A stretch of 64,000 bases of DNA from Corallococcus macrosporus DSM 14697 (GCF_002305895.1 NZ_CP022203.1:4814501-4878500); one strand, 5' to 3'. Positions 22,075 to 56,400 are shown, counted from the first letter of the stretch. The notes: a model not told the origin generated them from the letters alone. Made by a program: numbers and translations.

Positions 22075-22217
22075 CTCGCCTCCTCGCCAGGCCCGCCGGA
22101 GCCGAACGACCGGCGGGGCGGTCGTCCACTATCCTCGGAGGTCTGACATGCGCCTTCATGGGACGCATGGCGGTGGGTGCGTGGATCAGACCCGCTGGTG
22201 CGGGCTCCCGGCGCGCC

Positions 22218-23432
22218 TCAGCCGGCGCAGAGGACCTTCACCTCGACCTTCTTGTCGTCCGCGCGGCGCAGGCAGCTCGACTGGAAGAACAGGCGGGCCG
22301 GGTACCGCTCCGTGGAGGCCTCGTAGCGCAGATCCCCCGCGGCCACCGAGCACCGCTCCACCGTGTCATCCGCGCGCGTCAGCTCCACCTGGACCAGCCG
22401 GGGGTCGGGCAGGTTCACCACCTCGATGCTCTGCGCCACCGTGGCCAGCTCGGCGATGCGCAGCAGGGTGTCCCGGTAGTTGTCCCGGCAGATGGAGTCG
22501 AGGTTGTCGAGCGACTGGTCGAAGGCCTCCGCCATGGCGCGCTGCCGGTGGCCGGGACCGTAGGAGGTCGGGCAGTCGACGTTGCGCACGAAGACCCCGT
22601 CGGGCGTCTCGTCGCGGATCAGCTCCGCCCGCTTGTCGGACAGCGCCACCGGCCCAATCGTGGCCCAGAGGACCTGCCGCGAGGCCCCATTCGAGTCCCG
22701 AAGCTGCTGGAACATGTCGAAGTACTCCTCCACCGGCGTCAGCAGATGCGACTGCTCGCTGCAGTTGTCGATGGACGTGTCGTCGGACACCCAGACCGGC
22801 GGGGGCCGCTCCGTCGTGCTGCAGTCCTCCTCGTCCGTCACCACCGCCACCAGCAGCCGCGCGCCGTCGCGCAGGAACCCGGCGTTGCCGCCCTCCGCCA
22901 GCGACGTGGAGCTCAGCGGCTCCGAGACGGCCAGCCGGACCGCCTCCAGGGGCGTCTCCTGTCCGCTGCCCTCCGTGCCCTGGATCACCAGGCGCCGGAA
23001 CTTCTCCAGCACGTACGGATCCGTGCCGTCGATGAAGCGCTCGTCGGTGGGGTTGCCCGCCGAGTCCGGCACCGCCTGCAGCTTGCCGGCTTCGCTGGCG
23101 TACTCCCGGTACTGCGTCCGCCCCTCGAACATGGCCAGCCGGTACACGGACGTGGTGATCACCCCCACCCGGAAGTCCTGCGACACGCCGCTGCCTTCCT
23201 TCAACGCCTCCAGGAAGGCCGGCAGCTCCGTGGCGATGGCGTTCTGCTCCTCCTCCATGGATCCGGAGTTGTCGATGACGAAGAGGATGTCCGTCTTCTG
23301 CGGCGCGATGACCGGCGACTCGCTCTCGCACGTGCCCGGGAGGTTGGAGCCCGGCTCGTCGACGGGCGACCGGCACGCCGTTCCCAGGAGGGAGGGCAGC
23401 AGGAGCAGGTGGGCGAAGGATCGGAGCTTCAT
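22218..23432 (-). CDS. vWA-domain lipoprotein
   Basis: A 404-residue lipoprotein with lipobox LLGTAC and a vWA domain carrying the complete MIDAS motif DNSGSM (DILFVIDNSGSMEEEQNAI), a segment common in myxobacterial surface proteins (FLRDGARLLVAVVTDEEDC). Several cysteine pairs (DCSTTE, NCSEQ, DCPTSYG) suggest disulphides. The C-terminal part (SIEVVNLPDPRLVQVELTRADDT) forms a small beta domain. No catalytic function is expected; metal-dependent binding of a protein or polymer is the usual role. It is divergent from lonD across a 234-base promoter region and lies 143 bases upstream of imuA in the same direction. Confidence 0.87.
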   Translation of the reverse strand: MKLRSFAHLLLLPSLLGTACRSPVDEPGSNLPGTCESESPVIAPQKTDILFVIDNSGSMEEEQNAIATELPAFLEALKEGSGVSQDFRVGVITTSVYRLAMFEGRTQYREYASEAGKLQAVPDSAGNPTDERFIDGTDPYVLEKFRRLVIQGTEGSGQETPLEAVRLAVSEPLSSTSLAEGGNAGFLRDGARLLVAVVTDEEDCSTTERPPPVWVSDDTSIDNCSEQSHLLTPVEEYFDMFQQLRDSNGASRQVLWATIGPVALSDKRAELIRDETPDGVFVRNVDCPTSYGPGHRQRAMAEAFDQSLDNLDSICRDNYRDTLLRIAELATVAQSIEVVNLPDPRLVQVELTRADDTVERCSVAAGDLRYEASTERYPARLFFQSSCLRRADDKKVEVKVLCAG

Positions 23433-23574
23433 CGGGGGCCTCTCGGAGAGCGCACGCCCCGGCGGGGCGCCACGTCAGACACTGGGGGGCAAGCATGCCC
23501 CACCCCTCGCCCGGACGCGAGACTTCCGAGGAACACGGGAGTGACTGCGGGGGTCGGAAAATCGCACACGGCGT

Positions 23575-23602
23575 TTGCCATGTCCGTTTTGGTTGTTACG
23601 TT
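23575..23602 (+). promoter_or_regulatory. Possible sigma-70-type promoter of lonD
   Basis: TTGCCA (23575-23580) and TACGTT (23597-23602) are separated by 16 bases in the AT-richest part of the region between the vWA lipoprotein and lon genes. The start would leave a leader of about 60 bases. The match is partial, so this is tentative. Confidence 0.3.
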
Positions 23603-23666
23603 GGTTCATCCGCCGCAGAAAACCTGGAAATGTTCACTGGTTGTCGAAGAGAGAAGGCTGAACTCC

Positions 23667-26150
<2,484 letters not shown>

Positions 26151-41900: not shown

Positions 41901-42093
41901 GCGCCGTGCGGAGGATGGGATGCGCCAGGACGACGGCCTCCCACGCCTGGGTGAAGGCCCGCACGTCCAGGCGCCGCAGCTCACAGACGAGCTGGTTGAA
42001 GTACAGCCCCTGCCCGGGCTCCGAAATGGCATGGAAGAGCATGCCGCCCTGCAAGGGCGACAGGGGGTACAGGTCCTGGATGTTGTCGCTCAT
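29968..42093 (-). CDS. NRPS, C-PCP-(C-A-PCP)x3-TE, final part of lipopeptide line
   Basis: 4041 residues. A condensation domain of the type that follows epimerases (YPLSPLQGGMLFH; SHLILDGWS) at about 1-440, then directly a carrier (GGDSI, Ser510) with no A domain between. Three full modules follow: C about 590-1040 (HHIVSDGWS), A 1065-1540, PCP Ser1586; C 1645-2080, A 2110-2600, PCP Ser2653; C 2705-3130, A 3165-3660, PCP Ser3711. A thioesterase ends the protein (GWSLGG Ser3841, LMDSF Asp, PGDHYSA His). My pocket readings: DALWLGGTFK (Val-like), DLTKVGHVGK (Asp), DVWHVSLVDK (Ser). Its ATG overlaps the upstream stop by four bases (ATGA), so translation is coupled. It releases the finished chain as acid or ring; which is not visible. 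The first carrier must be loaded in trans or skipped. Confidence 0.96.
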   Translation of the reverse strand: MSDNIQDLYPLSPLQGGMLFHAISEPGQGLYFNQLVCELRRLDVRAFTQAWEAVVLAHPILRTALVWDDVDEPVQVVLREVELPIRVEDWRGLEPDARDSRWESFLEEDRREGIDLSQAPLVRLALMRVGEDAYRFVFSHSHLILDGWSVPLVLRDVFAAYEDALAGRPLRLVPPRPFGDYIGWLAEHDLTASESFWRQTLKGFREPTPLRAGPDGSEGHGRATRSLHLSEERTSALNALARRQGLTVSSLVQGAWALVLGHLSGAGDVVFGTIVSGRPPDLPGVEDMVGLFINTQPVRVRLTRDVSSLGWLRSLQDAQLEARQHEHAPLVKVQRWSDVPAGTPLFESLVVFENYPLDAALSSSAKSLSVHDVRAVEEDHFALTLVSMNGARLPLHLRYDRARFTAAFADAQLERLRFVLERWAEHAEDLLEEVARRSEHTRHPLVLTWADPRQPDVAPEPGPSASPAPPRAFEGPRDAKETTLAAIWAQVFGRERVDIHDNFFELGGDSIVGIQVIARAAQAGLRITAKQLFDQPTVARLAAVASEVPVDGASAPMAAPETSTEPSRQRRAEQAHVEEALLAEGEVGRPLSFAQERLWFLDQLEPGSASYNVTAAVRLVGPLDAQALERGFHALVQRHESLRTTFRSERGVPVQVIAPDGAPSFQPVDLSGLPESIRGDSASRLLKEEVLRPFDLVRGPLLRASLVKLAPEEHLLVMVIHHIVSDGWSIGVLVREWVTLYQAHLHGMASPLPPLPMQYADFAQWQRGWLRGEVLEAQVRYWRQQLEGAPRALELPTDKPRPAAQTFRGRAKRQVWPQALWQRVVALSRAEGATPFMVLVAAYQTVLWRHSGQDDISVGFPIAGRTHAQTEGLIGYFANTLVLRARVRPEATFRELLAQVREATLGAYAHQDVPFEKLVEALLPERDLSRSPLFQVSLTLLNTPQPKMDLGRGLALSPVEAETHTSKFDLSLMVEEAPEGVMVSLNYNSDLFEDETAERLLRHVRVLLEAAVESPGQRLEALPLMGAEERQRLVEVWSGRTVAYPREASLAELFEAQVEETPDAVAVEDRGETLTYAALNRRANQLAHHLRGMGVGPEVRVGVCVERSLAWVVSMLGVVKAGGVYVPLDASYPLERLGWMKSEARVALLVAQEKLADEMASGSELVVSVDTEWDALIARQPESNLRSGASGGNLAYVMFTSGSTGRPKGVGVPQRAVTRLVMGSGVADFGPREVWLQLAPTAFDASTLEVWGALLHGGKLVVYPEGPLELEALARTLEETGITSLWLTAALFEQMQAYQPQALRGVRQVLAGGDVLPVGRVRERVASGAVLINGYGPTEGTTFTSVHRMETVEDVGPGAVPIGGPVANTRVYVLDARLRPVPAGVRGELYVGGDGLAVGYVGRPELTAERFVPSPFGDGERLYRTGDEARWLGNGTLEFLGRRDTQVKVRGFRIELGEVEEALKQQAGVEEAAAVVREEGWGGKRLVAYVVAPGGDGAALKESVKQRLPEYMVPSTVVVLEALPLTPNGKVDRKALQVAELAPQVERQAREPRTPTEHQLLALWREVLGTERVNVEDDFFELGGHSLLATQLVAHVRSAFSVELPLRAIFESPTLEALAARIEGAGSSDAAAGVPPLVPAPRTDAMPVSFAQQRLWFIDQLHPGSAVYNVPIFLRLEGTLSVEALQQALSALVDRHESLRTTFASREGQPVQVIHPAGAFRLAFEDLGAWPTESREAELQARTAREALRPFDLRNGPLLRATVTRLSPASHTLLLVLHHIISDGWSLGVLVREVGALYTAFQEGRPPALPPMPVQYADFSVWQRRWLQGDALEAQLAWWRKQLSGAPPYLELPTDKPRPVTLSHQGAAVPVRLSRSLSDGVTALAQAEGATPFMVLLAAFQLLLSRYAGQEDVVVGSPIAGRRYQETEGLIGFFVNTLVLRAEVRPEETFRDLLAQVRERTLGAYEHQDVPFEKLVEHLQPERSLGRSPLFQVLFVLQNAPVGHLALPSLAVKPQGLVGTEAARFELSLNLGESPEGFSGILQFSTDLFTQATAARVVTHLQRLLESVSSAPAQRLSDVSLLAEAERQQVLGAWDAPGLDVPRAAVHQRFEQAVAASPDAPAVRCEDEVLSFRELDARANQLAHHLRGLGVGADVPVALCLERGAAWVVSMLGVLKAGGAYVPLDSTQPASRLQDLVAEVAAPVVITQARHAQVFGGTAATVVQWDADAATLEQHARHSPACEVHPDQLAYVLFTSGSTGRPKGVAVSHGQLAHYVHAVTERLDLTTCASFALVSTVVADLGNTVLFPALCSGGLLHVLTQERATSPAEAAEYFARFPVDCMKIVPAHLAALMTAAEPGRVLPKKRLVLGGESSSWSLLEQVHALAPACQVFNHYGPTETTVGVVAGPVALPRSAVSGASVPLGRALAHTRLYVLDAALRPVPVGIPGELYVGGAQVTRGYLRRPDLTAERYVPDPYSLTPGARMYRTGDKVRWLEDGRVEFIGRTDFQVKVRGFRVEPGEVAGVLRAHPGLRDAVVVAREDAPGDKRLVAYAVPAEAPGPETAALRAYLQERLPAHMVPSALVVLEALPLTANGKVDWRALPAPEASARDSSPDYEAPASPLEETLASVWAQVLRVERVGRKDDFFGLGGHSLLATQVVARLRAALGVEVPLRALFESPSLRGFAQRVALAARSEAMPGLHAQPRSEKRPLSFAQQRLWFLDRLQPGSTAYNVPLVLNLEGPLDVEVLERAFSELVRRHEVLRTTFPVQGEAPVQVILPAEALRIPVVDLRGQEDTAARRFIRAEVDRPFDLARAPALRTHLLKLAEARHVLVMMLHHIVSDGWSMGILVRELSTLHEAFSHGNASPLPELPVQYADYSQWQRDWLKGEALEAQVRYWRQQLEGAPRALELPTDRPRPAVQTFRGAVRRQVWPQALWQRVESLGRSESATPFMVLLAAYQTVLWRHSGQDDISVGFPIAGRTHAQTEGLIGYFANTLVLRARVKPEATFRELLAQVREVTVGAYAHQDVPFEKLVEELRPERDLSRSPLFQVSLTLQNTPPPDVKRSEGLSLKVVDAEIQTSKFDLSLFVGDAPGGVYAALNYNSDLFDGETAERLLGHMRVLLEAAVASPGQRLEALPLMGAEERQQLVEASSGRAVAAPREATLAELFEAQVEQTPDAVAVTFESEHVTYRELEARANQLAHFLQGMGVGVESLVGVCLERSVDMVVALLGVLKAGAAYVPLDPAYPRERLVGMLEDSGAAVLLTHERHQDVLASAPVRVVLLDAQREEVSRRPATRPAVPRVGPEALAYVIFTSGSTGRPKGAMNAHGAIVNRLRWMQREYGLGGEDVVLQKTPFSFDVSVWEFFWPLSVGARLVVARPGGHQEPAYLTKVLKEERVSTVHFVPSMLRAFLEEPGLEGLSALRRVVCSGEALDAELVKTAYARLPETVEVHNLYGPTEAAVDVTYWPCPRDARLQRVPIGKPVANTALYVLDGQGQPAPVGIPGELHIGGVQVGRGYRQRPELTAERFIPDAFSGVPGARLYRTGDVTRWLPDGTLEYLGRADFQVKLRGFRIELGEVEAALRGHPGVRDAVAVVRQEARGDARLIAYVTGEAEPLTPAALQAHLRKQLPSHMVPSVVVRLDVLPLTPSGKVDRKALPVPEAPTVPSGQYVAPRTPTEEALADIFSQVLGGRRVGVHDGFFELGGHSLLATQVVVRVRAQFGVELPLRALFESPSVAKLTGWLDGAGTDALVRCRVALQPEGSGTPVFLVHAVGGAVGPYRELARRVGASRPVYAFQAAGLDGREPPLARIEALARRYVESMREVQPEGPYVLGGWSLGGVVAFEMARELERQGQRVALLALMDSFAPDEKVSAREAEGGVLLARMAMDLARMAGAESALRPEDFAGLGDEAQLSTVVQHARQAGWLPPEVEVSVLRAWRDVMQANLRALAAYRPGPLRCPVLLLRAKDARRAYAVDPSHGWAPWLPSGLTVEDVPGDHYSALRPPHVETLARRLAEHVDAATGGQETPEGLKRGAG
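32555..33470 (-). repeat. Intragenic repeat, condensation domain, copy 1
   Basis: About 915 bases covering the C-A linker and most of the condensation domain of the last module match 38906-39821 in frame at an offset of 6351 bases, including long runs identical at silent sites (for example the coding of GRTHAQTEGLIGYFANTLVL). Suggests recombination or gene conversion inside the gene. Confidence 0.85.
38906..39821 (-). repeat. Intragenic repeat, condensation domain, copy 2
   Basis: Partner of 32555-33470 in the second condensation domain of the same gene. The two condensation domains are far more alike than either is to the condensation domain between them. Confidence 0.85.
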
Positions 42094-45000
42094 CGCGTCT
42101 TCTTTCCAAACCGCGCGGACAGCTTGTCGAGTTGCGCCTGCTTCACCTTCGCGAGCGGGAAGTCCGAGGGCGAATGGCCCCCCGCGTCCGGCGCCTTCGA
42201 CGCCGCCACCAGGGCCCGCAGGCGCGTGACGAAGTCCTCCGCCACGCGTGCCACCGTCTCACGCCGGTGCACCGCGCCGCTGAAGGTCCACAGCACCTCC
42301 AGCCGCCCGTTGCGAACCGCGCTCATCACGTCGATCAGGTACGGCCGGCGAGCCACCGGCGCCCGCTGCCGCAGGGACTCGCTCTCCGCCGCCAGCGCGA
42401 AGGGCCCGTCCGCGCCCACCACGCCGTCCACCTGTCCCAGGTGGTTGAAGCCCACCTCCGCGGCGGGCAGCGCCGCCAGCGCCGCGTCCTTCGACACGTA
42501 GCGGAGCAGGCCCCACCCCATGCCCTGGGACGGCACCGCGCGCAGCCCTTCCTTCACGGCGCGCAGCGCATCCCCGGGGGTCGGCGCCCCACGCAGGTCC
42601 AGCAGCGCGGGGAACACGCGCGTGAACCAGCCCACCGTGCGCGAGACATCCACGCCCGGCAGCACCTCTTCACGGCCATGGCCCTCCACGTCCACCAGCG
42701 CGACGCCGCCACCGGCCCACGCCGTCAGCGCCTGCCCCAGCGCGGTGAGCAACGGGTCCTGCGCCTGCGTGTGCCAGGCCTTGGGCACGTCCTGCAGCAA
42801 GGCCCGCGTCTCCTCCACGTCCAGGGTGACGCGAACCGAATGCGCCGTGGCCTCGGTGTTGACGCCTTCCGGGAAGTCCACCGGCACCCGGGCCGCCTCC
42901 TGCCAGGGCCGCTCCAGCCACCACTTCCGCTCCGCCGCCAGCTTCTCCGACCGCGCGAGCGTCTCCAGGCCCCGCGCCCAGGCCTGGAACGAGGTCGTCT
43001 TCGGGGGCAGCCGCGCCGCATTGCCCGCGGCGAGCTGTGCGTACACCCCGGCCAGGTCCTCCAGGAGGATGCGCCACGACACCGCGTCCACCACGAGGTG
43101 ATGGACGGTCAGCAGCAACCGCGCGGAGCGCCCACGCCCCAGGGTCAGCAGCGTGGCGTGGAGCAGCCCGCCGTCCAGCCGCAGGGCCTGCTGCGCCTCT
43201 TCGGCGCGGTGCTGCACCACCGCCGCCTGCTCCACCTCGGGCACGGTGGACAGGTCCACCTGCTCGACGAGGACACCAGCCTCCGGCTCCGGGACGACCT
43301 GCCGCCAGCCCGCCTCGCCGCGTGCGAACCGCGCCCGGAGCGCATCATGGTGCGCCAGCAGGTGGGTCAACGCCTGTCCCAGGAGGGCGCCATCCAGGGG
43401 GGTCTTCACCTCCAGCAGCAGGGACATGTTCCAGTGGTGCGGCGCCTCCTGTGCCAGCTCGAAGAACCAGTGCTGGATGGGCGTCAGCGCCACGGGCCCC
43501 ACCACCGCGCCCTGCTCGGCCTGCACGGCGAGCCGGGTCCCCGCGACCGTGGCGAGCCGCGCGACCGTCGGGTTCTGGAAGAGCTGCTTCGGTGACAGCT
43601 CGATGCCCTGCGCGCGCGCGCGGGTGATGATCTGCAAGCCCAGGATGGAGTCGCCGCCCAGCTCGAAGAAGTCGTCGTGGATGCCCACGCGCTCCACGCC
43701 CAGGACTTCCCGCCAGAGCGACACCAGCGTGGCCTCCACCTCCGAACGAGGCGCCACCGGCGCGACCGCCGGCCCCGTTTCGGGCGCGGGCAGCGCGCGG
43801 CGGTCCACCTTGCCGTGTCGCGTGCGTGGCAACGCGTCCAGCGCGACGACCGCCGCGGGGACCATGTACGGCGGCAGCCGCGAACGCACCCAGCCCTTCA
43901 GCGCCGCCGCGTCCGGCGCCGCGCCGCTGTCCGTGGCCACGGGCACCACGTAGGCCACGAGCCGCTTCGGCCCCTTGCCATCGTCTCGCGCCACGACGAC
44001 GGCCTCCCTCACCGAGGGATTCGCCAGCAGCGTGGCCTCGACCTCGCCCGGCTCGATGCGGAAGCCGCGCACCTTCACCTGCTCATCCACGCGGCCCAGG
44101 AACTCCAGCGTGCCGTCCCCGCGCCAGCGGGCCACGTCGCCCGTGCGGTACATGCGCGCACCGGAGCGGCCGTCGAACGGATCCGTCACGAAGCGCTCGG
44201 CCGTGAGTCCCGGCTGGCCCAGGTAGCCCCGCGCCACGCCCGCGCCGCCCAGGTACACCTCACCCGGCGCGCCCTGCGGGACGAGCTTGCGCCGCGCGTC
44301 CAGCAGGTACACGCGCGCCCCGGGCACCGCGCGGCCAATGGGCACGCGGTGCTCCTCCCCCACCCGCACCCGGTGCACCGTGCTCCAGATGGTGGCCTCC
44401 GTGGGGCCGTACTCGTTGAACAGGGCCACCGACGGCAACGCCTCATGGTGCGCACGCGTCAGCTCCACGGGGCACGCCTCACCGCCGACGCTCACCGCCG
44501 TCAGGCTCTTCAGGCCCCCCACAGCCGCCGCGGCGAGGAGCTGCCCGTACAGCGACGGCACGGAGATGAGGTGCGTGACGCGTGACTGGGCGATGCGCTC
44601 CGCGAGCCGCCGCGGGTCCTCACGCTCCTCCGCGTCCGGGTAGCGCAACGCGCCGCCCTCGAACAGGGACCAGAGCAGCCCCGCCAGCGCGGCGTCGAAG
44701 GTGAATGGCGCCAGGGACATCACGACGCCGGGCGCGCCGTACACCTCCGCGCGGGCCCGTGTGGCCGCCACCAGGTGCCGGTGCTCCAGCACCACACCGC
44801 GTGGCCGCCCCGTGGAACCCGACGTGTAGACGATGCACGCCGCGTCCGTTCCCTCCGGACGGACGCGCAGGTCCCCCGTGGCCTCGGGCAGCGAGTCCAG
44901 CGTGATGACCTCCGGCCCCGCTCGCGAAGGAACGCGCGCACGGAGCGACTCGGAGGTGAGCAGCATCCGGGCCTGCGTGTCCGCCAGGATGCTGGAGAGG

Positions 45001-48000
45001 CGCTCCGGCGGATGGTCCACGTCCAGCACCACCACCGCCGCGCCCGCGCGCATCACGCCCAGCAGCCCCGCCACCACCTCCGAGGGCTGCGCCACCGCAA
45101 GCGCGACGACGGCGCCTCGCCCCACGCCCCGTGACACCAGGTGCCCGGCGACGCGCAGGGACAGCGCTTCCAGCTCGCGATACGTGAAGGTCCGGGCACC
45201 GTCCGCCACCGCCACCGCGTCGGGCGTCCGCGCCGCCTGGGCCAGGAACCGCGCGGGCACGGTGTCCGAGGCAGGCAGCTCGGCCACGGGCGCGGGGTTC
45301 CACTCCACCAGCAGCCGGGCGCGCTCCGCGGCGTCCAGGAGGTCGAGCTGGGACAGCCGCGCGTCCGGGCGGCTCGCCGCGGCCTCCAGCACCCGCAGCA
45401 GGGAGCCCGCGAGCCGCGCGATGGTGGCCTCGTCGAAGAGGCGGGTGTTGAAGTCGATGCCGCCGCGCAGGCCCTCGGCCGTCTCCGTGACCTCCAGCGT
45501 GAGGTCCATCTTCGTGGCGCCCGTGTGCACGTAACGGCCACGCATCTGGAGCCCGGCCAGCGACAGCACGGGCGTGGGCGTGTTGTGCAGCACCAGCATC
45601 GTCTGGAAGACCGGGTTGTGGCTGAGGTCGCGCGGGGTGTTCAGCACCTCCAGCACCTTCTCGAACGGCATCTCCTGGTGCGAGAAGGCGGCCAGCGCGG
45701 TGCGCCGCACCCGGCCCAGCACCTGCGTGAACGTGGGGTCTCCGCTCAGGTCCGCGCGCAGGGCAATGGAGTTGATGAAGCAGCCAATCAGCGGCTCCAC
45801 CTCGGGCCGGTTGCGCCCCGCGACGGGCGACCCCACCGCGAAGTCCTCCTGTCCCGTGTACGCGTGCAACAGCACCTGCCACGCGGCCAGCAGCACCATG
45901 AAGGGCGTGGCCCCCTCCTTCCGGCCGGCCGCCACCACGGCATCCATCAGCGACCGGGGCACCGAGAAGGGCAACTGCGCGCCGTCATGCGTCTGCACGG
46001 GCGGACGGGGACGGTCCACCGGGAGCTGGAGCACCGGCACCTCCGCCAGCACCTCGCCCCACCAGTCCTGCTCCGCCTTCAGCGAGGGGCCTCGCATCCA
46101 CTCCAGCTGCCAGAGCGCGTAGTCCGCGTACTGCACGGACAGGGCGGGCAGCGTCGGCGGCTGGCCCGACATCTCGGCCTCGTACAACTGAATCATCTCG
46201 TGCACCATCACCGCCGCGGACCAGCCGTCCGAGATGATGTGGTGCAGCGTGAGCAGCAGGACGTGCTCGGTGCTCCCCACCCGCAGCAACGTCGCGCGGA
46301 GCAGCGGGCCCTGCTCCAGGTCGAAGGTGCGGCGCGCCTCTTCACGCGCCTGGCGGGCGAGCTCCTCCTCACTGGCGTCCTCCGCATCCCGGACGAGGAT
46401 GGAGACCTCCAGCGCTGGCGCGATGAGCTGCACCGCGGCGTCGCCTTCCACGGCGAACGTGGTCCGCAAGGCCTCGTGCCTGCGCACCACGCCGTTCAAC
46501 GCCCGCTCCAGCGCCGCGGCATCGAGCTTGCCGGACAGCGTGAAGGCGACGGCGTTGTTGTAGGCCACGTTGCCTGGCTCCAACCGGTCCAGGTACCAGA
46601 GCCGCTGCTGCGCGAAGGACAGCGGCAGCGGGCGTCCCCGAGGCACGAGCGGAATGGTCCCCGAGCCCTCGGGCCTGGAGGCCGCGCCGCTCCCCATCCG
46701 CGCGGCGGACTTCGGCGGCGCTGGACGCCGCTCCGTGACGGGCGCGGCGGCCAGGAGCTCCACCGAACCGTCCCGCTTGCGCCGCGCACGACGGCCAGTC
46801 CCCAGCCGCCGCGCACCGTCGGACTCCCCGGCGAGCACGCGCATCGACGTGGTCTCCGGCGCGTTCCAGAAGCCACGCGGCACCCCCGCGCCCGTCACCA
46901 CCAGCTCACCCACGACGCCCACCGGCACCGGCTGGCCGCGTCCGTCCACCACGTCCCACCGCGAGGCGTCCACCGGCCCCATGGCCACGGCCCAGGCGCC
47001 GAGCCCCAGGCCGGGCTGACGGTGCGCGACCCGCCACGGCATGGCGCGCGCCAGGGACGCCGCCGCTTCCTCGGACGCGCCTTCGAGCAGGACGTGGCGC
47101 ACGGGGCGCAGCACCTCCGCCGCGTCGGGCAGCGCCAGCATCGACCGCGCCAGCGCCGCGGTGCAGTGCAGGTGGGTGATGCCCGCCTCCCGCACCAGCG
47201 ACAGCAGGGCCTCCGCCGCGCCAGGGCCTTCCCGGAGGGCCGCCGAGGGAATCGCGGGCGAGGGCGCCGGCGAATGACGGCCACGCAAGGCGTCCAGGTG
47301 CCGCAACCCCTCCAGCGTCGCCTCGACCTCCACGCCGAAGTCCACCAGGCAGGCAATCTCATCCACGTCGAGCCGCTGGACCCGCTCCACCATGGGCGCG
47401 CAGCTCTCCGGCGTGCCGATGAGGCCGCCGTCCTGCACGTAGCGCTCCACACCGTGCGCCAGCAGCGCGTCGATGTCCGAGCGCGACAGCGAGCGGGGAT
47501 CCACGTCGAGCCCCAGGCTGGCCAGGAAGCCCGAGGAGATGTCCACCGAGCTGCGGAAGTAGTCGAGCAGCGGCGGCCGCGCCTTCTTCTGGACCTCGGC
47601 CGGGTCATCACCGAGGAACGCGTGCATCATCAGGCTCACGTGCCCGCGCCCCGCGTGGCCATGTTGCCGCCAGGCATCGCGGTACAGCGCCACCTTGCTC
47701 GCCAGGTCATCCAGGTGCTGGCCCATCAGGTTGGTGAGCACGTACGCGCCCAGCTCGCCCGCCAGCCGGAACGTCTCGGGACTGCCGGCGGCGGTGAGCC
47801 AGATGGGCAGCACCTTCTGGACGGGCTTGGGGCGCAGGGAGATGGCGACCTCCTCTCCCGCGCCATTGCGTCGCAGCACCGTTCCACCGCGCCACAGCGT
47901 GCGCACCTCCTCGATGCCGCGGTGGAGGACGTCCTTCCTCCGCGCGTACCGGTCCGGCGCGAACACGAAGTCATTCGCGTGCCAGCCCGACGCGAAGGAC

Positions 48001-51000
48001 ACCCCCACGCGGCCGTCGGACAGGTTGTCCAGCACGGCCCACTCCTCCGCCACGAGGATGGGGTCATGCAGCGGCAGCACCACGCTCCCCGCGCGGATGC
48101 CCAGCCGCTCCGTCACCGTGGCCACGCCCGCGCCCACCACGGCGGGCCGAGGGTACAGACCGCCGAACGAGTGGAAGTGCCGCTCCGGCGTCCACACCGC
48201 GGAGAAGCCATGCGCGTCCGCGAACTTCGCCGCCTCCAGCAGCAGGCGGTACTTCCGGCCGCCCAGCGAATCCTCGTCGTTGGCGAAGAACGACAGGCTG
48301 AAATCCGTCCTCCGCCGCTCAGGCGCCGCGCCCGTCCCCCACGACGTGAAGCGCGCGCGCTCCGCGGGCAGCACCACGCGCAGCCCACGCGTCAGCGCCC
48401 AGAGGAGCTCCAGCCCGGAGCCGGGCGCCTGCGCCTCCTCCGCCGCGAGCCAGATGCCGTCCTTCGACGGAGCCTCCGCGTCCAACCGGGCGAACAGCGC
48501 CGCCACGGTGTGGTGCGTGTGGATGGCGCGGAGCTGCTCGCCCCGGGTCCCCACCAGCGGCTCCAGGCAGACCATGTCTCCGTCGGAGGCCCGCGGCGCC
48601 TCGCGGGCGGGCACGCCCAGGCGCGAATCGGTCCGCGAGAGGACCTCGTCCACCCGGATGACCCGCGCCGCGTCCAGCGGCACGCCCGTGCGGACATTCG
48701 TATGGGTCAGGAGCAGCGGCGATGGCGCCCCCGGAGGAGAGAGGCTGGCCAGCTCGCGGAGCTGCGGCACGGACAGCAGGACGTAGGCCGCCCCCAGGGC
48801 CTGCACCGCCCACTGCGCCACCACCCGCTCCACGGACGGCTCCAGGCAGACGGCGACCAGGACCTCGGGCCCCACCTCGTGGCCGGCCAGCTCCGCCGCC
48901 AGCCGGTCGGCGGACGCTCGCAGCTCGCCCCACGTCACGGCTCGGCCTTCCGGCGCCGTCATCGCCACCGACGCGGCATCAGCGGCGGCGCGCGCCTGAA
49001 GCGCCTCCGCGACAGGCACCGGCGCCGAGGCGGAGCGCCCGGCCTCCACCGCCGCCGGCCCGGGACGGGGCTGCTCGAGCGGCAACGCGAGGAGCGGCGT
49101 CTCGGGGGCCGCCACGGCCGCTTCGAGCAACGTGGTCCAGTGGGCCACCAGGCGCTCCACGGTGTCCCGTTCGAAGCGCTCCTCCGCGTAGTCGATGGTG
49201 CCGGAGAAGCCGTGCGCGTGTTCGCCCAGGCCCACCGTCAGGTCCGACAGGACGCTGCCGAACTCAGGCGGCACGTCATCCAGCTCGGCCAGGCTCATGC
49301 GCACGCCGGGCAGGTCCGCGGTCCGGTCGAAGCGGCTGTGCAGCACGAACAGGGTGTCGAAGACGCGCGAGCGGCCGGTGTCCTTCGTGGGCTCAATCTC
49401 CCGCCCCAGCTCTTCGTACGGGACGTCCGGATGCGCGTAGGCCTCCATGATGACATCCCGGACGCGCATCACCAGCTCGCGGAAGGACGGCGCGCCCGCC
49501 AGGTCCGTCCGCAGCGGGACGGCGTGCGCCACGTAGCCAATCATCGGCTCCAGCTCCGGCCGGCTCCGGTTTCCAATGGGCGTCCCCACCACGATGTCGT
49601 CGCGGCCCGTCCAACGGGACAGCAGCGCCTTCCACGACGCCAGCAGCACCATGAACGGGGTGACGCCTTCACGCTGCGCCAGCGCCTGGACCGCGGCCGA
49701 CAGCGTGGAGGAGAACCCCACCTTCAGCACCTGACCTCGCAGCGCGGGGCCGTCTCCCCGCGCGCGGTCCACCGGCAGCTCCAGCGGACTGGGGAACGCG
49801 GCCAGCCGCTCCCGCCACGCCGAGAGTTGAGACGCGAACGCGCCCTCCTTCAGCGCCTTCCGCTGCCACGCCGCGAAGTCCACGTACTGCACCGGCAGCG
49901 CGGGGAGCCGCGCCGGGTGCCCCTGCTTGAGGGCCGCGTAGTGCTCGCCCAGCTCCTTCGCGAACACCACCAACGACCAGGTGTCACACACCACGTGGTG
50001 GATGGTGACGGCGAGCATGAAGTCGTCCGCCCCGAGCCGCCACAGCCGCGCGCGGGCCACGGGGCCGCGCTCCAGGTCGAACGGCCGCGACACCTCGTCG
50101 TACACGCGCTGCTGCCATGTGGCGCCCGCGAGCGGCTCGGGCGTCAACGGGAACGTCAGCCTTGGCGCGATGCGGAGGACCGGCACGCCGTCCCGCAATG
50201 GATAGGACGTGCGCAGCGCCTCGTGACGCTGCGCCGCCGCCTCCAGGCTCCGCTCCAGGACCGCCACGTCCAGCGCCCCCTGGAAGCGCAGCACCACGTA
50301 CATGTTCAGGGCCGGGTTGCCGGGCAGCGCCTGCTCCAGCGCGCAGACGCGCCCCTGCACCACCGACAGGGGCAAGTCGCCATCACGCGGGATGCGGACC
50401 AGCGGAGGAAGCACCGGCTCCGCGCCATTCGCGCCCGAGGCCCCCAGGCGCTCCTGGATGCGCGCCGAGATTCCCGCCACCGTGGGCGAGTCGAAGACGT
50501 CGCTCAAAGGAAGTGGAACGGGGAACGCCTCGCGCAGCCGCGTCAGGAGCTGCGCGGCCATCAGCGAGTTGCCCCCCAGCTCCAGGAAGTCGTCGTGGAT
50601 GCCGAAGTCCGACCGGCCCAGGCGCTCGCGCCAGATGGCCAGGACCTTGCGCTCCACCTCCGTGCGAGCCCCCGCCAGGTCCGAGGCGGCCTCCGCCGCG
50701 CCTCCGCCGCCGGCGACGACCGGGGACACGGCCACGACTTCGGCGGGGGCCTGGAGGGCCTTCACTGGCGCGGGAGCCGCGACGCGGAACGTCTGCCGCT
50801 GGAAGGGATACGTGGGCAGCGTCAGCTTCCGCCGCGTCTCGTGCGCGTAGACCTGGCGCCAGTCGAGCACCAGTCCCTGCTCCCACAGCGCGCCCAGCGC
50901 CTCCATCAGCGTGGCGTGCATCCCCCGCTTCGAGCCCGCCCGGGGCTGCGACGCCACGGCGCGCCCGGGCCCGCCCCGAGCCAGGGCCGTGAGCGCCTGG

Positions 51001-53438
51001 TCCGGGCCCACCTCCAGGAACACGGTGCAGCCGTCCGCCCTCAGCGCCTCCAGCCCATCACCGAAGCGCACGGGCGCGCGCATCTGCCGGAGCCAGTAAT
51101 CCGGGTCCGTGGCCTCCTCCGCGCGAATCCACGTCCCGGTGACGCTGGACACGTAGGGCCGCTGAGGCGCGGACAGCCGCAGCCCGGCCACCACGCGCCG
51201 CAGCTCCGCCATCAGCGGCTCCACCGCCGCCGAGTGGAACGCGTGCGCCGCAGGCAGCCGCAGCACGCCGATGCCCCGGACGGCCAGGTCGCGCTCCAAC
51301 GCCTCCACGTCCGGCGCGGGCCCGGAGACCACGCACCGGTCCGGCCCGTTCACCGCCGCCAGGGACAGCGCCTCCGTGAGCAGCGGGCGCACCGTCTCTT
51401 CCGCGCAGCCCACCGCCGTCATGCTGCCCGGCGGCATCCGCGCCATCAGCCGGCCGCGCGCCGCCACCAGCGCCAGCGCGTCCTCCAAGGGCAGCACCTC
51501 CGCGAGGCAGGCCGCCACGTACTCACCGAAGCTGTGCCCCAGGTACGCGCGCGGGCGAACGCCCCAGGCCTCCCATTGGCGCGCCAGGGCGTACTCCACG
51601 GCGAAGAGCGCGGGCAGCGCGATGCCCGGGTCGGCCAACGCCTGCCTCGCCGCGTCCTCCGCGCCGGGCGCCGGCGACAACACGCTCCGCACCGAGGCGC
51701 CCAGCGCCGCGCCCAGCCCGTCCAGGCAGGACTCCAGGGCCTCCCGGTAGACGGGCTCCGCGGCGTGCAGCTCGCGGCCCATCCCCACCGACTGCGCCCC
51801 CTGGCCCGGGAACAGGAAGGCCACGCCCTGCTCGCGCGCGGCCACCACGTTCTCCACGGCCTGGGCCTTCCCCGGCGCGCGCAGCTTCTCCCGCAGCGCC
51901 GCGACGTCCGGCGCCACGAAGCTCCGCCGGTGCTCGAAGGCCCGGCGCCCCACGTTGCGCGTGAAGGCCACGTCCGCCAGCGCCACGCCGGCGGGCGCGG
52001 CGTCCAGCCACCCGGCCAGCTCCCGCGCCGCGGCGTCCAGGGCCTCTGGCGAGCGGCCCGACAGCGTCACCACCTGCGTGGGCCGGACGCTGGGCGTGGT
52101 GGGCTCGGGCAGCGGCGCCTCCTCCAGCACCGCGTGCGCGTTCGTCCCGCCAATGCCGAACGAGCTGACGCCCGCGCGCCGGGGCACCGGCCCTCGCGGC
52201 CAGGGCCGCAGCCGATCCACGACGAAGAAGGGGCTGTTGGCGAAGTCGATGGCCGGGTTCGGCCGCTCGAAGTGGAGCGTGGGCGGCAGCTCCTCGTGCG
52301 TCAGCGCCAGCGCTGTCTTGATGAGCCCGGCCAGGCCCGCGGCCGTGTCCAGGTGCCCCACGTTCGTCTTCACCGAACCGAGCGCGCAGTAGCCCTTCTG
52401 CTCCGTCTGCCGCCGGTAAGCGCGGGTGAGCGCGGCGACTTCGATGGGGTCACCCAGCGCGGTGCCCGTGCCGTGCGCCTCCACGTAGCCGATGTCTCCC
52501 GCCTCCAGGCCCGCGAACGCCAGCGCCTCGCCAATGACGTCCGCCTGCCCCTCCACGCTGGGCGCCGTGTAGCCCACCTTCTGGCCACCGTCGTTGTTGA
52601 TGGAGGAGCCCCGGATGACCGCGTACACCCGGTCACCGTCCCGGCGCGCGTCCTCCAGCGGCTTGAGCACCACCACCGCCACGCCGTTGCCCGGCACCGT
52701 CCCCGCCGCGCGCGCGTCGAACGCACGGCAGTGGCCGTCCGGGGACAAGATCATCCCCTCCTGGAACAGGTAGCCCGTGCGCTGCGGCATCGCCAGCCGC
52801 ACCGCGCCCGCCAGCGCCACGTCCGACTGACGCATCACCAGGCTCTGACAGGCCATGTGCACGGCCACGAGCCCCGTGGAGCACGCGGTGTAGAGGGACA
52901 GGCTCTCCCCGCGCAGCCCCAGCTTGAAGGACGCGCGGGTGGCCAGGTTCTCCGCCGAGTTGCTCATCAGCTCGTACAGCGACGCCGGGTCCAGGCTCCC
53001 CTGCCCCACCCGCCCCAGGCCGTGCATGGAGGCGCTCGCGCCGGCGTAGAGGGCAATCTTCCCCTCGAACCGCTCCGGGTCCAGCGCCGCGTCCTCCAGG
53101 GCCGTCCAGGCACACTCCAGGAACACGCGCTGCTGCGGGTCCATCCACTCGGCCTCGCGCGGGGCCATGCCGAAGAAGGCCGCGTCGAAACCGTCGCCGC
53201 CCTCCATTTCCGCGGCCACCGGGACGAAGTCCGGATGGTGGCGCGACGCTTCGGCCATCAGGGGAGACCACTCCAGCGCCTCGGGCGCGAGCCGGACGAT
53301 GGACTCCACGCCCTCCCGCAGGTTGCGCCAGAACGACTGGACGTCCGCGCTGCCTGGAAAGCGGCCCGCCATGCCGATGATGGCGATGTCATTGCCCGTG
53401 CCGCCGGAGTTCTCGCTCAAGGTGTCGTGCTCAGCCAT
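42090..53438 (-). CDS. Hybrid PKS-NRPS, KS-AT-ACP-C-A*[MOX]A*-C-A-PCP-E
   Basis: 3782 residues. KS (about 14-440; Cys186 in TACSTGL, EAHGTGT, NVGHLD); AT (about 545-865; Ser636 in GHSFGEY; HAFH at 732-735 predicts malonyl-CoA); carrier Ser958 (GGNSL); no KR, DH or ER, so the beta-keto group stays. C (about 1010-1460, HHVVCD); a degenerate A domain split by a luciferase-like monooxygenase (1709-2052), with no PCP after it; C (2260-2700); A (2725-3215, pocket DAAISGEIWK, no confident substrate); PCP Ser3264; epimerase to the end (HHLVVDAVSW, SRTVGWFTRVFP), giving a D-residue. The ATG overlaps the upstream stop by eight bases. The carrier-less MOX module must act on the chain held by a neighbouring carrier. 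Confidence 0.96.
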   Translation of the reverse strand: MAEHDTLSENSGGTGNDIAIIGMAGRFPGSADVQSFWRNLREGVESIVRLAPEALEWSPLMAEASRHHPDFVPVAAEMEGGDGFDAAFFGMAPREAEWMDPQQRVFLECAWTALEDAALDPERFEGKIALYAGASASMHGLGRVGQGSLDPASLYELMSNSAENLATRASFKLGLRGESLSLYTACSTGLVAVHMACQSLVMRQSDVALAGAVRLAMPQRTGYLFQEGMILSPDGHCRAFDARAAGTVPGNGVAVVVLKPLEDARRDGDRVYAVIRGSSINNDGGQKVGYTAPSVEGQADVIGEALAFAGLEAGDIGYVEAHGTGTALGDPIEVAALTRAYRRQTEQKGYCALGSVKTNVGHLDTAAGLAGLIKTALALTHEELPPTLHFERPNPAIDFANSPFFVVDRLRPWPRGPVPRRAGVSSFGIGGTNAHAVLEEAPLPEPTTPSVRPTQVVTLSGRSPEALDAAARELAGWLDAAPAGVALADVAFTRNVGRRAFEHRRSFVAPDVAALREKLRAPGKAQAVENVVAAREQGVAFLFPGQGAQSVGMGRELHAAEPVYREALESCLDGLGAALGASVRSVLSPAPGAEDAARQALADPGIALPALFAVEYALARQWEAWGVRPRAYLGHSFGEYVAACLAEVLPLEDALALVAARGRLMARMPPGSMTAVGCAEETVRPLLTEALSLAAVNGPDRCVVSGPAPDVEALERDLAVRGIGVLRLPAAHAFHSAAVEPLMAELRRVVAGLRLSAPQRPYVSSVTGTWIRAEEATDPDYWLRQMRAPVRFGDGLEALRADGCTVFLEVGPDQALTALARGGPGRAVASQPRAGSKRGMHATLMEALGALWEQGLVLDWRQVYAHETRRKLTLPTYPFQRQTFRVAAPAPVKALQAPAEVVAVSPVVAGGGGAAEAASDLAGARTEVERKVLAIWRERLGRSDFGIHDDFLELGGNSLMAAQLLTRLREAFPVPLPLSDVFDSPTVAGISARIQERLGASGANGAEPVLPPLVRIPRDGDLPLSVVQGRVCALEQALPGNPALNMYVVLRFQGALDVAVLERSLEAAAQRHEALRTSYPLRDGVPVLRIAPRLTFPLTPEPLAGATWQQRVYDEVSRPFDLERGPVARARLWRLGADDFMLAVTIHHVVCDTWSLVVFAKELGEHYAALKQGHPARLPALPVQYVDFAAWQRKALKEGAFASQLSAWRERLAAFPSPLELPVDRARGDGPALRGQVLKVGFSSTLSAAVQALAQREGVTPFMVLLASWKALLSRWTGRDDIVVGTPIGNRSRPELEPMIGYVAHAVPLRTDLAGAPSFRELVMRVRDVIMEAYAHPDVPYEELGREIEPTKDTGRSRVFDTLFVLHSRFDRTADLPGVRMSLAELDDVPPEFGSVLSDLTVGLGEHAHGFSGTIDYAEERFERDTVERLVAHWTTLLEAAVAAPETPLLALPLEQPRPGPAAVEAGRSASAPVPVAEALQARAAADAASVAMTAPEGRAVTWGELRASADRLAAELAGHEVGPEVLVAVCLEPSVERVVAQWAVQALGAAYVLLSVPQLRELASLSPPGAPSPLLLTHTNVRTGVPLDAARVIRVDEVLSRTDSRLGVPAREAPRASDGDMVCLEPLVGTRGEQLRAIHTHHTVAALFARLDAEAPSKDGIWLAAEEAQAPGSGLELLWALTRGLRVVLPAERARFTSWGTGAAPERRRTDFSLSFFANDEDSLGGRKYRLLLEAAKFADAHGFSAVWTPERHFHSFGGLYPRPAVVGAGVATVTERLGIRAGSVVLPLHDPILVAEEWAVLDNLSDGRVGVSFASGWHANDFVFAPDRYARRKDVLHRGIEEVRTLWRGGTVLRRNGAGEEVAISLRPKPVQKVLPIWLTAAGSPETFRLAGELGAYVLTNLMGQHLDDLASKVALYRDAWRQHGHAGRGHVSLMMHAFLGDDPAEVQKKARPPLLDYFRSSVDISSGFLASLGLDVDPRSLSRSDIDALLAHGVERYVQDGGLIGTPESCAPMVERVQRLDVDEIACLVDFGVEVEATLEGLRHLDALRGRHSPAPSPAIPSAALREGPGAAEALLSLVREAGITHLHCTAALARSMLALPDAAEVLRPVRHVLLEGASEEAAASLARAMPWRVAHRQPGLGLGAWAVAMGPVDASRWDVVDGRGQPVPVGVVGELVVTGAGVPRGFWNAPETTSMRVLAGESDGARRLGTGRRARRKRDGSVELLAAAPVTERRPAPPKSAARMGSGAASRPEGSGTIPLVPRGRPLPLSFAQQRLWYLDRLEPGNVAYNNAVAFTLSGKLDAAALERALNGVVRRHEALRTTFAVEGDAAVQLIAPALEVSILVRDAEDASEEELARQAREEARRTFDLEQGPLLRATLLRVGSTEHVLLLTLHHIISDGWSAAVMVHEMIQLYEAEMSGQPPTLPALSVQYADYALWQLEWMRGPSLKAEQDWWGEVLAEVPVLQLPVDRPRPPVQTHDGAQLPFSVPRSLMDAVVAAGRKEGATPFMVLLAAWQVLLHAYTGQEDFAVGSPVAGRNRPEVEPLIGCFINSIALRADLSGDPTFTQVLGRVRRTALAAFSHQEMPFEKVLEVLNTPRDLSHNPVFQTMLVLHNTPTPVLSLAGLQMRGRYVHTGATKMDLTLEVTETAEGLRGGIDFNTRLFDEATIARLAGSLLRVLEAAASRPDARLSQLDLLDAAERARLLVEWNPAPVAELPASDTVPARFLAQAARTPDAVAVADGARTFTYRELEALSLRVAGHLVSRGVGRGAVVALAVAQPSEVVAGLLGVMRAGAAVVVLDVDHPPERLSSILADTQARMLLTSESLRARVPSRAGPEVITLDSLPEATGDLRVRPEGTDAACIVYTSGSTGRPRGVVLEHRHLVAATRARAEVYGAPGVVMSLAPFTFDAALAGLLWSLFEGGALRYPDAEEREDPRRLAERIAQSRVTHLISVPSLYGQLLAAAAVGGLKSLTAVSVGGEACPVELTRAHHEALPSVALFNEYGPTEATIWSTVHRVRVGEEHRVPIGRAVPGARVYLLDARRKLVPQGAPGEVYLGGAGVARGYLGQPGLTAERFVTDPFDGRSGARMYRTGDVARWRGDGTLEFLGRVDEQVKVRGFRIEPGEVEATLLANPSVREAVVVARDDGKGPKRLVAYVVPVATDSGAAPDAAALKGWVRSRLPPYMVPAAVVALDALPRTRHGKVDRRALPAPETGPAVAPVAPRSEVEATLVSLWREVLGVERVGIHDDFFELGGDSILGLQIITRARAQGIELSPKQLFQNPTVARLATVAGTRLAVQAEQGAVVGPVALTPIQHWFFELAQEAPHHWNMSLLLEVKTPLDGALLGQALTHLLAHHDALRARFARGEAGWRQVVPEPEAGVLVEQVDLSTVPEVEQAAVVQHRAEEAQQALRLDGGLLHATLLTLGRGRSARLLLTVHHLVVDAVSWRILLEDLAGVYAQLAAGNAARLPPKTTSFQAWARGLETLARSEKLAAERKWWLERPWQEAARVPVDFPEGVNTEATAHSVRVTLDVEETRALLQDVPKAWHTQAQDPLLTALGQALTAWAGGGVALVDVEGHGREEVLPGVDVSRTVGWFTRVFPALLDLRGAPTPGDALRAVKEGLRAVPSQGMGWGLLRYVSKDAALAALPAAEVGFNHLGQVDGVVGADGPFALAAESESLRQRAPVARRPYLIDVMSAVRNGRLEVLWTFSGAVHRRETVARVAEDFVTRLRALVAASKAPDAGGHSPSDFPLAKVKQAQLDKLSARFGKKTR
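47283..48314 (-). other. Embedded luciferase-like monooxygenase (MOX) domain
   Basis: Residues 1709-2052 of the hybrid synthase. The block from RRTDFSLSFFANDEDS to VEATLEGLRHLDALRG is a full FMN-dependent luciferase-like monooxygenase of the kind named natural-product biosynthesis LLM (TIGR04020): AVWTPERHFHSFGGLYP, LGIRAGSVVLPLHDPI, LSDGRVGVSFASGWH, LPIWLTAAGSPETF. It is inserted in an A domain between the A4 and A5 regions, as in the MOX-A domains of myxothiazol and melithiazol synthases. The flanking A halves have lost the A3 (SGSTGxPKG), A5 (YGPTE), A7 (YRTGD), A8 and A10 motifs, so they cannot adenylate. Confidence 0.92.
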
Positions 53439-56400
53439 GGCCTCGGGGGTTCCTTCCTCCGCGCCGCTGGAGGGCCTGCCTGCGGGCCTCCGCGCGCGAC
53501 TGGTGCTTCACGTCGGTGGTGTCGTCCGGCCGCGCCTCGGCTTGCAGCCGCCGGGCGAGCGCGTGGACCGTGGGGTGTTCGAAGAAGTGGGTGATGGGGA
53601 CTTCGCGCCCCAGCGACTCGCTCAGCCGCGAGCACGCACGCACCACGGACAGGGAGCTGCCGCCCAGGTCGTCTAAGAAGTGGGCATGGACGTCCACGGA
53701 GGGGAGCCCCAACGCCTCCGCCCACGCGCGGGCCGCCTGCTCCTCCAGCGGCGTGCGGGGCTTGCCTTCCGCCGACACGGGGAGCGCGGGCTTCGGGAGC
53801 GCGCGCGCATCCACCTTGCCCGAGGCCAACAGGGGCAACGCCTCCAACGTCACGAGGTCCACGGGGACCAGGTGCTCCGGCAGCCGTTCCCGCAGCCGCG
53901 CGCGCACCTCTCCCGGCGGAAGGACGTCTCCCGGCGGCGGCACGACGTACGCCACCAGCCGGGGCTCCGCGATGGAAGAAGGACGCCACACGGTGACGTG
54001 GGCCTGGCGCATGCCGCTCAACTCGCGCAGCGCCGCCTCCACCTCGCCGGGCTCCACGCGGAAGCCCCGCAGCTTCAACTGCGTGTCCGCGCGCCCCAGG
54101 AAGTCCAGTTGGCCATCCTCCCGCCAGCGCACGACGTCTCCAGTCCGGTAGAGCCGGGCTCCGGGCTCGTCGCCATGCGGGTCCGGAATGAAGCGCTCGG
54201 CGGTGAGGTCCGGCCGGCCCAGGTAGCCGCGGGCCAGGGACGGCCCCCCCACGTAGAGCTCCCCCGCCACGCCCACGGGAACGGGCTGGAGCGCCGCATC
54301 GAGCACGTACGCATCGATGTGCGGCAAGGCGTTGCCGATGGCGGCCGGTCCCTCCGTATCGGGCGTGAGACGTGCCCACGTCGCGCACACCGTCACCTCG
54401 GTGGGACCGTACGCGTTGAGGAACGTGCGGCCCGCGGCGAAGCGGGCCACGAGGCTCGCGGGACACGGCTCCGCGCCGGCCATGAACAGGGTCAGGTCCG
54501 GCAACGGCCCCTCTGGAAGCAGCAGGGCCACGGACGGCGGCAGCATCGCGGCGGTGATGCGTTGCTCCACCAGCAACCGGTACAGCGCGTCCCCCATGGG
54601 AGGCGCTCCCGGCGCCACGTGCAGCGCGCTGCCCGAGGACAGGGCCGCCACGTAGTCCGACACCGACATGTCGAAGGCGGGCGAGGCGAACAGGAACACG
54701 CGTGAGTCCGGCCCGAGCGGAAGGCCGCTGGCGAAGGACTCGCACAGGTGCGCGACGCCCCGGTGCGTCACCACCACGCCCTTGGGCCGGCCCGTGCTTC
54801 CGGACGTGTAACAGACATACGCCGCGCCGTCGGGTGACGCCTCGCCACCTCCGGGCGGTGGCGCCTCCACCTCCACGGCGCCGGCTCCCGAGATTTGCGC
54901 TTCCCAGCGCAGCACCGTCACGTCGTCGAGCGGCTCCAGCCGTTGGGCATACCGCTCATGGGCCAGGAGCACGCGAGCGCCCGCGTCCGCCAACGTCCAC
55001 GTCACCCGGCCCGGAGGATACGCGGGGTCCAGCGGCACCGCGGTGCCCCCCGCCTTGAGGATGGCGAGGAACGCCGCCACCTGCTCGGGGCCGCCGCGCT
55101 CCAGCAGCGTGCCGACCCGGACCTCGGGGCCCACGCCCTCGCGCCGCAGCAGCGTGGCCAGCCGGTCGACCCACGCCGCCAGCTCCCGGTAGGTCCACCG
55201 CGCCGTGCCCGCGACGAGCGCGGGTGCGTCCGGCGTCTTCGCCGCCCACGACTCCAGCCGCTGAACCAGGCCACCAACCTCCGGCACGCGGGGGCCGCGG
55301 CGCCCCCTGCCCCGCGCGAGCAAGGCGCGTCGCTCCTCCGCCTCCAGCCAGGGCAGGTCCACCAGGGGCAGGTCCGGCCGCGCGGCGGCGGCGTCCAGCA
55401 AGGCGCCCAGGTGTCGCACCATGCGAGCGGCGGCATGGGTGTCGAAGAGGTCGGCGCAATACTCCAGCCTCGCCACGAAGGCGCCTTCCACCTCCGCCAT
55501 CACCAGCGAGAGGTCGAAGGCCGCGCCAGGGTGGCGCAAGGGGACGGACTCGACCGACAGCTCGCCCAGGCGGGCCCGCGCACCCGGCGCGCCGACGGCG
55601 AACGCGCCCAGGGGTTCGCTTCCAGGACGGCCCGACTGCAGGGCGAACATCGTCTGGAAGACGGGCGCGCGCGAAGGGTCCCTGCGCGGCTGAAGGTGCT
55701 CCACGAGCCGCGGGAAGGGCAGCTCCTGGTGGTCCAGCGCGTCCAGCACGGTGCCCCGGACCTGCGTCACCAGGCCGGAGAAGGTCATCGCGCGCGGCAG
55801 GTGGGCGCGCAAGGCGACCGGGTTGACGAAGTAGCCCAACTGACGCGACAGGTCCGCGCGAGGGCGCCCGGCGGTGGGCGTGCCCACCATCAGGTCGTCC
55901 TGCCCCGAGTAGCGGCGCAGGAACGTCAGGTATCCGGCCAGCAGCACCATGAACGGCGTGGCGCCGTGCGCGCGCGCCAGGGCCTTCAAGCGCGCGGACG
56001 TCTCCGGCGACACGGCGAAGGACACGGCGTCGCCACGGAACGACTGGAGCCGGGGTCTCGGCCCCGAGGTGGGCAGCTCCAGCACCGGCAGCTCACCGCC
56101 CAGCCGCTCGCGCCACCACGCCTGGAGTGCCTCGGCGCGCGGCCCCGAACACCGCCGCGCGAGCCCCTGAAGCAGCGTGGACGCCAACGGCGGCGCCGGA
56201 GGGAGCGGCGGCGGTACGCCCCGCAGCTCCGCGCCGTAGAGCGTCCCCAGCTCTCCGGCCAGCACCTCCAGCGACCAGAAGTCGGTGATCAGGTGGTGCA
56301 TGGCGAGCAGCAGGACGTCCCCACCCGGCGCCCCCGTGTACAGCCGGACCCGCACCAACGGCCCGTGCTCCAGGTCGAAGGGACGATGCGCCTCTTCGTG

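Follow-up and report, generated by a model that had tools for sequence, protein, structure and literature searches.

A luciferase-like monooxygenase inside a disabled adenylation domain of a myxobacterial PKS-NRPS, probably oxidizing the preceding polyketide chain

The monooxygenase cassette and its degenerate adenylation core

The 64,000-nucleotide stretch NZ_CP022203.1:4814501-4878500 of Corallococcus macrosporus DSM 14697 (GCF_002305895.1), hereafter the window and numbered from its first letter, carries a three-gene set whose middle gene encodes a hybrid polyketide synthase-nonribosomal peptide synthetase (PKS-NRPS) of 3782 amino acids in a single open frame (53438-42090, minus strand). 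This protein holds a luciferase-like monooxygenase (MOX) embedded in an adenylation (A) domain that has lost most of its catalytic motifs and has no peptidyl carrier protein (PCP) behind it. The disabled module probably oxidizes the chain made by the preceding polyketide step.

By Pfam and NCBIfam, the domain order is KS-AT-ACP-C1-[A core/MOX]-C2-A-PCP-E, the terminal domain of condensation (C) fold being read as an epimerization (E) domain. The PKS module, made of a ketosynthase (KS), an acyltransferase (AT) and an acyl carrier protein (ACP), contains no KR, DH or ER domain. The features are as follows.

42090-53438, minus strand: PKS-NRPS gene, 3782 amino acids
52266-53393, minus strand: KS domain (Pfam PF00109/PF02801)
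50982-51818, minus strand: AT domain with motifs GHSFG and HAFH (malonyl-type)
50457-50648, minus strand: ACP with motif GGNSL, the sole carrier upstream of the MOX in the PKS-NRPS
49062-50375, minus strand: C1, condensation fold with HHVVCDT and IGYVAHA, a clade-specific signature
48303-49061, minus strand: degenerate A core, N-terminal part; A1 and A2 present, A3 gone
47283-48302, minus strand: MOX of the MupA/Atu3671 family of luciferase-like monooxygenases, inserted between A4 and A5
46743-47282, minus strand: degenerate A core, C-terminal part; A6 present, A5, A7 and A8 gone, A10-bearing subdomain deleted
46629-46742, minus strand: Pro/Ala-rich linker where the A subdomain and PCP would be
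45312-46628, minus strand: C2, condensation domain of canonical type (HHIISDG) and next functional elongation step
43791-45242, minus strand: A domain of the next module, intact
43548-43724, minus strand: PCP of the next module (GGDSI)
53431-58788, minus strand: upstream gene with a FAAL-like AMP-binding domain, a carrier and one C-A-PCP module
29968-42093, minus strand: downstream NRPS gene with a thioesterase at its end

The MOX (residues 1713-2052) matched TIGR04020 (MupA/Atu3671) over the full length of the profile (positions 1-341) at 514 bits, the cut-off being 244.45, and it also matched Pfam PF00296. When the two A halves flanking it were scanned in isolation, the one before the MOX aligned with positions 2-243 of the AMP-binding profile PF00501 at 51 bits, and the one after it with positions 246-384 at 29.0 bits (below the 29.9 cut-off). 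Neither half contained PF13193, the C-terminal A subdomain, and no PP-binding match appeared even at E<=10. As a control, an intact MOX-A module encoded in the same genome gave 195 + 107 bits and a clear PF13193 match in the same scan. Reading of the motifs was in agreement: A3 (YTSGSTGxPKG), A5 (YGPTE), A7, A8 and A10 are absent from the window shell, and A1, A2 and A6 are still readable. A functional NRPS A domain comprises a core and a C-terminal subdomain with the A10 lysine; here only the core fold was found.

No carrier protein lies between the MOX and C2, and a PCP overlooked by the profile was ruled out, as there was no Pfam match at E<=10 and none with a purpose-built ACP profile. The original prediction, made from the sequence alone, had described an A domain deprived of these five motifs around the MOX and no PCP before the next C domain. 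Both statements were borne out, its coordinates (46700-49020) proved correct to about 70 bases (46629-49061), and profile searches for an intact A core or a PCP in residues 2053-2260, which would contradict it, revealed neither. It had also proposed that the shell was kept as a scaffold. This is supported by the predicted structure, in which the shell superposes on true adenylation cores (Z 34.7, 357 residues, rmsd 2.8). The predicted shell fold spans model residues 12-773 and breaks off at the expected start of the C-terminal subdomain, and the predicted MOX structure matches the MOX of PuwE (6ket, Z 37.4).

Two types of MOX module and an altered condensation domain

To place the cassette among its relatives, we surveyed 101 sources (window included), annotated with profiles made from the window's own domains, and computed a quick tree of the 101 distinct MOX domains. 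These divided into 39 of type I, 60 of type II and 2 outside any A shell. Type I modules have no A motifs, no C-terminal subdomain and no PCP, and the next domain is always a C domain. Upstream, wherever the sequence suffices, there is always KS-AT-ACP, followed by C-[dead A core/MOX]-C. The A7 aspartate after TG is missing in all 26 aligned type I proteins, where the residue is mostly Arg or Gln. Type II modules all carry A5 and A8, and nearly all have A3 and the remaining motifs; the C-terminal subdomain follows and then, where the contig allows, a PCP.

On the tree, the type I MOX form one side of a branch (SH-aLRT 99), and this single clade rules out a chance grouping of dead shells. The clade contains at least 4 well-separated subclades, which match different gene clusters. 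Invariant MOX core residues are common to both types, and the clearest difference is found at MOX position 249 (window protein residue 1961), which is Phe in 39/39 type I and Leu or Ile in 60/60 type II domains. YFRSS was rejected as a strict type I motif, the exact string being missing in 6 of 28 further type I domains in a motif search. The AT motif HAFH occurs in the window and in nearly all type I loci read, and the specificity codes of the A domain downstream of the cassette differ from one cassette to another. In the survey sample, type I was seen only in the window's myxobacterial family in the GTDB sense (Myxococcus, Pyxidicoccus, Corallococcus, Archangium), and type II is spread over many phyla. 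Beyond Myxococcota, sampling was part of the best 80 loci of 569 relatives in a genome contig scan, and rare type I modules may exist there given this sample.

The domain preceding the dead shell is also altered. Each of the 38 type I cassettes in which C1 is readable, together with 2 more in split genes (40/40), has HHxxxDT in place of HHxxxDG and VAH in place of FVN, so that C1 does not carry the canonical motifs of a condensing C domain. Thr and His occurred together at these positions in none of the 237 other C domains of the set. A Pro to Arg change and a short insertion are found further on. The signature residues presumably line the active centre. A Gly to Asn change at position 269 was discarded as a marker, because it is found in 23 of the 156 other C domains. 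C1 groups in a single clade (support 100; 22 rows, two being split copies), which occurs together with the type I MOX clade. The top C-fold match of the C1 model was the glycopeptide X-domain 4tx2 (Z 38.3); ordinary C domains tie with it (Z 37-38), and we therefore do not claim X-domain membership. From these sequences, the C1 changes look like re-tooling rather than decay, and the entire C1-A 'module' seems to have been converted into a platform for oxidation without elongation.

The window cassette was present in 23 of the 26 same-genus genomes searched, and 20 further orthologues all had an identical architecture. Between the window and four orthologues, the ratio of nonsynonymous to synonymous substitution rates (dN/dS) was ~0.17-0.26 in the MOX and ~0.32-0.49 in C1; the shell gave ~0.4-0.5 in its N-terminal part and ~0.26-0.46 in its C-terminal part. 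The pN/pS ratio between orthologues was 0.20-0.34 for the MOX versus 0.31-0.62 for the shell. The shell thus changes faster than the MOX yet is maintained, and the cassette is under purifying selection. Sequencing error, pseudogene and chance were ruled out by the one open frame, by the likeness of the 39 type I MOX and the 20 further orthologues, and by this selection. Overall, the cassette is a conserved, recurring class and not an oddity of one gene.

Some other MOX modules met in the survey deserve mention. The window strain's genome (8.97 Mb, from a Myxococcus-like genus) contains 10 luciferase-family matches, mostly within long open frames. Two of its other type I cassettes (L048:8586-8955 and L050:7550-8216) are each divided between overlapping frames, with the break at or inside the dead shell; related genomes have single long frames instead, and the split is a frameshift or a sequencing error. 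At 4.29-4.33 Mb of the same genome, the type II module L049 and the type I module L050 have their MOX ~18 kb apart and lie no more than ~55 kb from the myxochelin gene MxcG, an arrangement that points to a single assembly line with both MOX types. The two MOX without an A shell (L052:12482-16024, minus strand, and L102:754-6396, plus strand) pair on the MOX tree, and that of L102 sits in a KS-AT-MOX-carrier PKS.

Proposed oxidation step and competing explanations

We consider it likely, with a probability of about 0.72, that C1 and the A core represent a former elongation module that would now serve as an in-line platform for oxidizing the beta-ketoacyl chain bound to the upstream ACP. The upstream gene would supply an acylated amino acid to the PKS module, and KS-AT-ACP would add malonate. 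Because the AT is malonyl-type and there is no reductive domain, the chain reaching the MOX should be a beta-ketoacyl-S-ACP. The ACP would then offer this chain to the MOX, which would use FMNH2 and O2 to oxidize the chain at its acidic alpha-carbon, yielding a 2-hydroxy or 2-oxo product; C-C cleavage may accompany this and give a one-carbon (alpha-keto) extension. Finally, C2 would transfer the oxidized chain off the ACP and onto the aminoacyl-PCP that follows. The C1-A core itself would neither load nor add an amino acid; having no carrier of its own, the block should be unable to add a residue. We infer the ACP-bound substrate, the alpha-oxidation and the non-condensing role of C1, and the exact product of the MOX step is a guess.

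Several points weigh against this proposal. The structure models are of modest confidence (pLDDT 73-75), and access of the ACP to the MOX is not visible in them. C1 retains HH and Asp, so some catalysis by C1 is possible. No flavin reductase was found in the scanned parts of the window, and one from elsewhere would be needed. Finally, the cluster has no linked product or activity.

The MOX could instead act on the PCP of the following module, on an aminoacyl- or peptidyl-S-PCP, for example by hydroxylating the next amino acid. MtaG/MelG-type MOX have indeed been assigned a role in oxidizing a PCP-bound glycyl unit (PMC11342130), and intact A-PCP modules come after C2. However, the specificity of the next A domain differs among cassettes and the preceding KS-AT-ACP is constant, which favors the upstream ACP, of the two substrates that the original prediction had offered, and makes action on the downstream PCP unlikely. 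That the C1-A-MOX block is merely a decaying, skipped and functionless module seems very improbable. The A core has indeed lost catalytic motifs and its C-terminal subdomain, and two related cassettes of the same genome have their frame broken in two at or in the shell region, but the MOX core residues are conserved, dN/dS is well under 1 over C1, shell and MOX alike, intact orthologues occur in those 23 of 26 genomes and the C1 signature is identical in 40/40 cases.

C1 might also be a new kind of catalyst that cleaves a C-C bond of the ACP-bound chain, or rearranges that chain, once the MOX has oxidized it. C1 keeps HHxxxD yet carries fixed, exclusive substitutions where C domains are otherwise conserved (Gly to Thr, Asn to His, Phe to Val, Pro to Arg), which would suit such a role; a silent docking platform also fits these substitutions, and we regard a catalytic C1 as decidedly unlikely. 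Oxidation on the upstream ACP remains our preferred explanation. A bolder version of it, which we offer only tentatively, is that the C1-A core pair constitutes a new non-elongating 'oxidation module' in which the re-tooled C1 would receive the beta-ketoacyl-ACP and, jointly with the MOX, would oxidatively trim the malonate unit by one carbon, leading to alpha-keto-beta-amino acids.

These findings matter for product prediction. Domain-prediction tools are likely to call the block an extra amino-acid-loading C-A module, and the product predicted would then be wrong. HHxxxDT, VAH, no A3 and no PCP would give a simple rule for recognizing a non-elongating oxidation step. More generally, the cassette would be a case of a whole catalytic module retained to house a different enzyme, and it provides a defined setting in which to study how malonate extensions may become alpha-keto or alpha-hydroxy units in myxobacterial peptides.

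Some neighboring features are recorded here. Module 1 of the downstream NRPS (29968-42093, minus strand) is a C-PCP without A domain, with the C domain at residues 64-500 and the carrier at residues 540-598. The equivalent place in locus L039 is occupied by C-A-PCP and then another C-fold domain; compared with L039, the window strain appears to have cleanly lost this A domain. Outside the gene set, DNA polymerase III alpha-like, ImuB-like and RecA-domain genes (1-2757, 19673-21193 and 21202-22074, respectively, all on the minus strand) are parts of an ImuA-ImuB-DnaE2-type mutagenesis set, the polymerase lying ~17 kb from the other two. A Lon-type protease frame (22158-26150, plus strand) has ~530 residues without Pfam match before the Lon substrate-binding domain, and its true start may be internal.

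Comparison with known systems

The MOX of MtaG and MelG (myxothiazol, melithiazol) reside in glycine-loading A domains with a working carrier and have been assigned C-alpha hydroxylation (PMC11342130). As in the window, the MOX is inside the A domain, and the insertion place is equal, judged from the surveyed type II modules. However, their active A domain and carrier are both lost in the window, a distinction drawn from their description and not from an alignment. Indeed, the window cassette, like all 39 type I cassettes, is devoid of A3, A5, A7, A8 and A10, and it has no PCP. The contrast with MtaG/MelG-type modules drawn in the original prediction is thus real in kind, since the surveyed type II modules keep a readable A domain and 0/39 type I modules do so. 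Nevertheless, the two belong to the same enzyme family.

The closest solved structure to the window MOX is that of PuwE (PDB 6ket, 48% identical). The PuwE MOX lies between PKS and NRPS modules and, with an aminotransferase, has been assigned the tailoring to a 3-amino-2-hydroxy chain (PMC4219810). The window MOX likewise comes after a PKS ACP and before a C domain, but C1 and the shell intervene. Moreover, the PuwE MOX has no A shell and is preceded by the aminotransferase, whereas the window MOX is inside an A core, and Pfam found no aminotransferase domain in the protein. In keramamides and calyxamides, a one-carbon extension is ascribed to a PKS module with an oxygenase, and an 'Ox' PKS module has been assigned to calyxamide (PMC12858407). 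These Entotheonella modules combine a PKS module and an oxygenase as the window does, a likeness by description only. Together, PuwE tailoring and one-carbon extension by oxygenase-bearing PKS modules favor alpha-oxidation on the upstream ACP. The glycopeptide X-domain (4tx2) offers a further parallel as a non-condensing C-fold domain that works with oxygenases, recruiting P450 enzymes in trans; C1 differs in its HHxxxDT and in being followed by an oxygenase in cis.

In the open-licence papers searched, we found no description of the dead-shell architecture or of the C1 signature, and nothing on the myxoprincomide oxidation step, 2-oxo-beta-leucine or an alpha-ketoamide MOX. On the basis of that literature, the kind of assembly line is known and the dead-shell architecture and C1 signature appear new.

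The nearest parallels are found among other myxobacterial clusters. L047, putatively matched by chromosome position and size to myxoprincomide MXAN_3779 of Myxococcus xanthus, and L073 share with the window the order KS-AT-ACP-C(HHxxxDT)-[dead A core/MOX]-C, although the L047 cassette belongs to another clade (~45% identity) and another cluster. On the chromosome of genome G006, MxcG (4.38 Mb), a 15,473-amino-acid frame with a type I cassette (4.58 Mb) and the orthologue of the window (4.87 Mb) follow one another. A published cluster table lists myxoprincomide MXAN_3779 and a 'lipopeptide' cluster MXAN_3986-4020 (PMC4902038). Judged from this table together with position and size, the 15,473-amino-acid frame would be the myxoprincomide synthetase MXAN_3779, and from the table and the chromosome order, the window orthologue would correspond to the 'lipopeptide' cluster MXAN_3986-4020. 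On the MOX tree, the type I cassette of M. xanthus contig L073 groups with that of the 15,473-amino-acid frame. Myxoprincomide contains 2-oxo-beta-leucine, which would fit an oxidized, one-carbon-extended valine. Apparently, the myxoprincomide synthetase of a tractable strain includes a similar cassette, which makes the proposed oxidation step directly testable.

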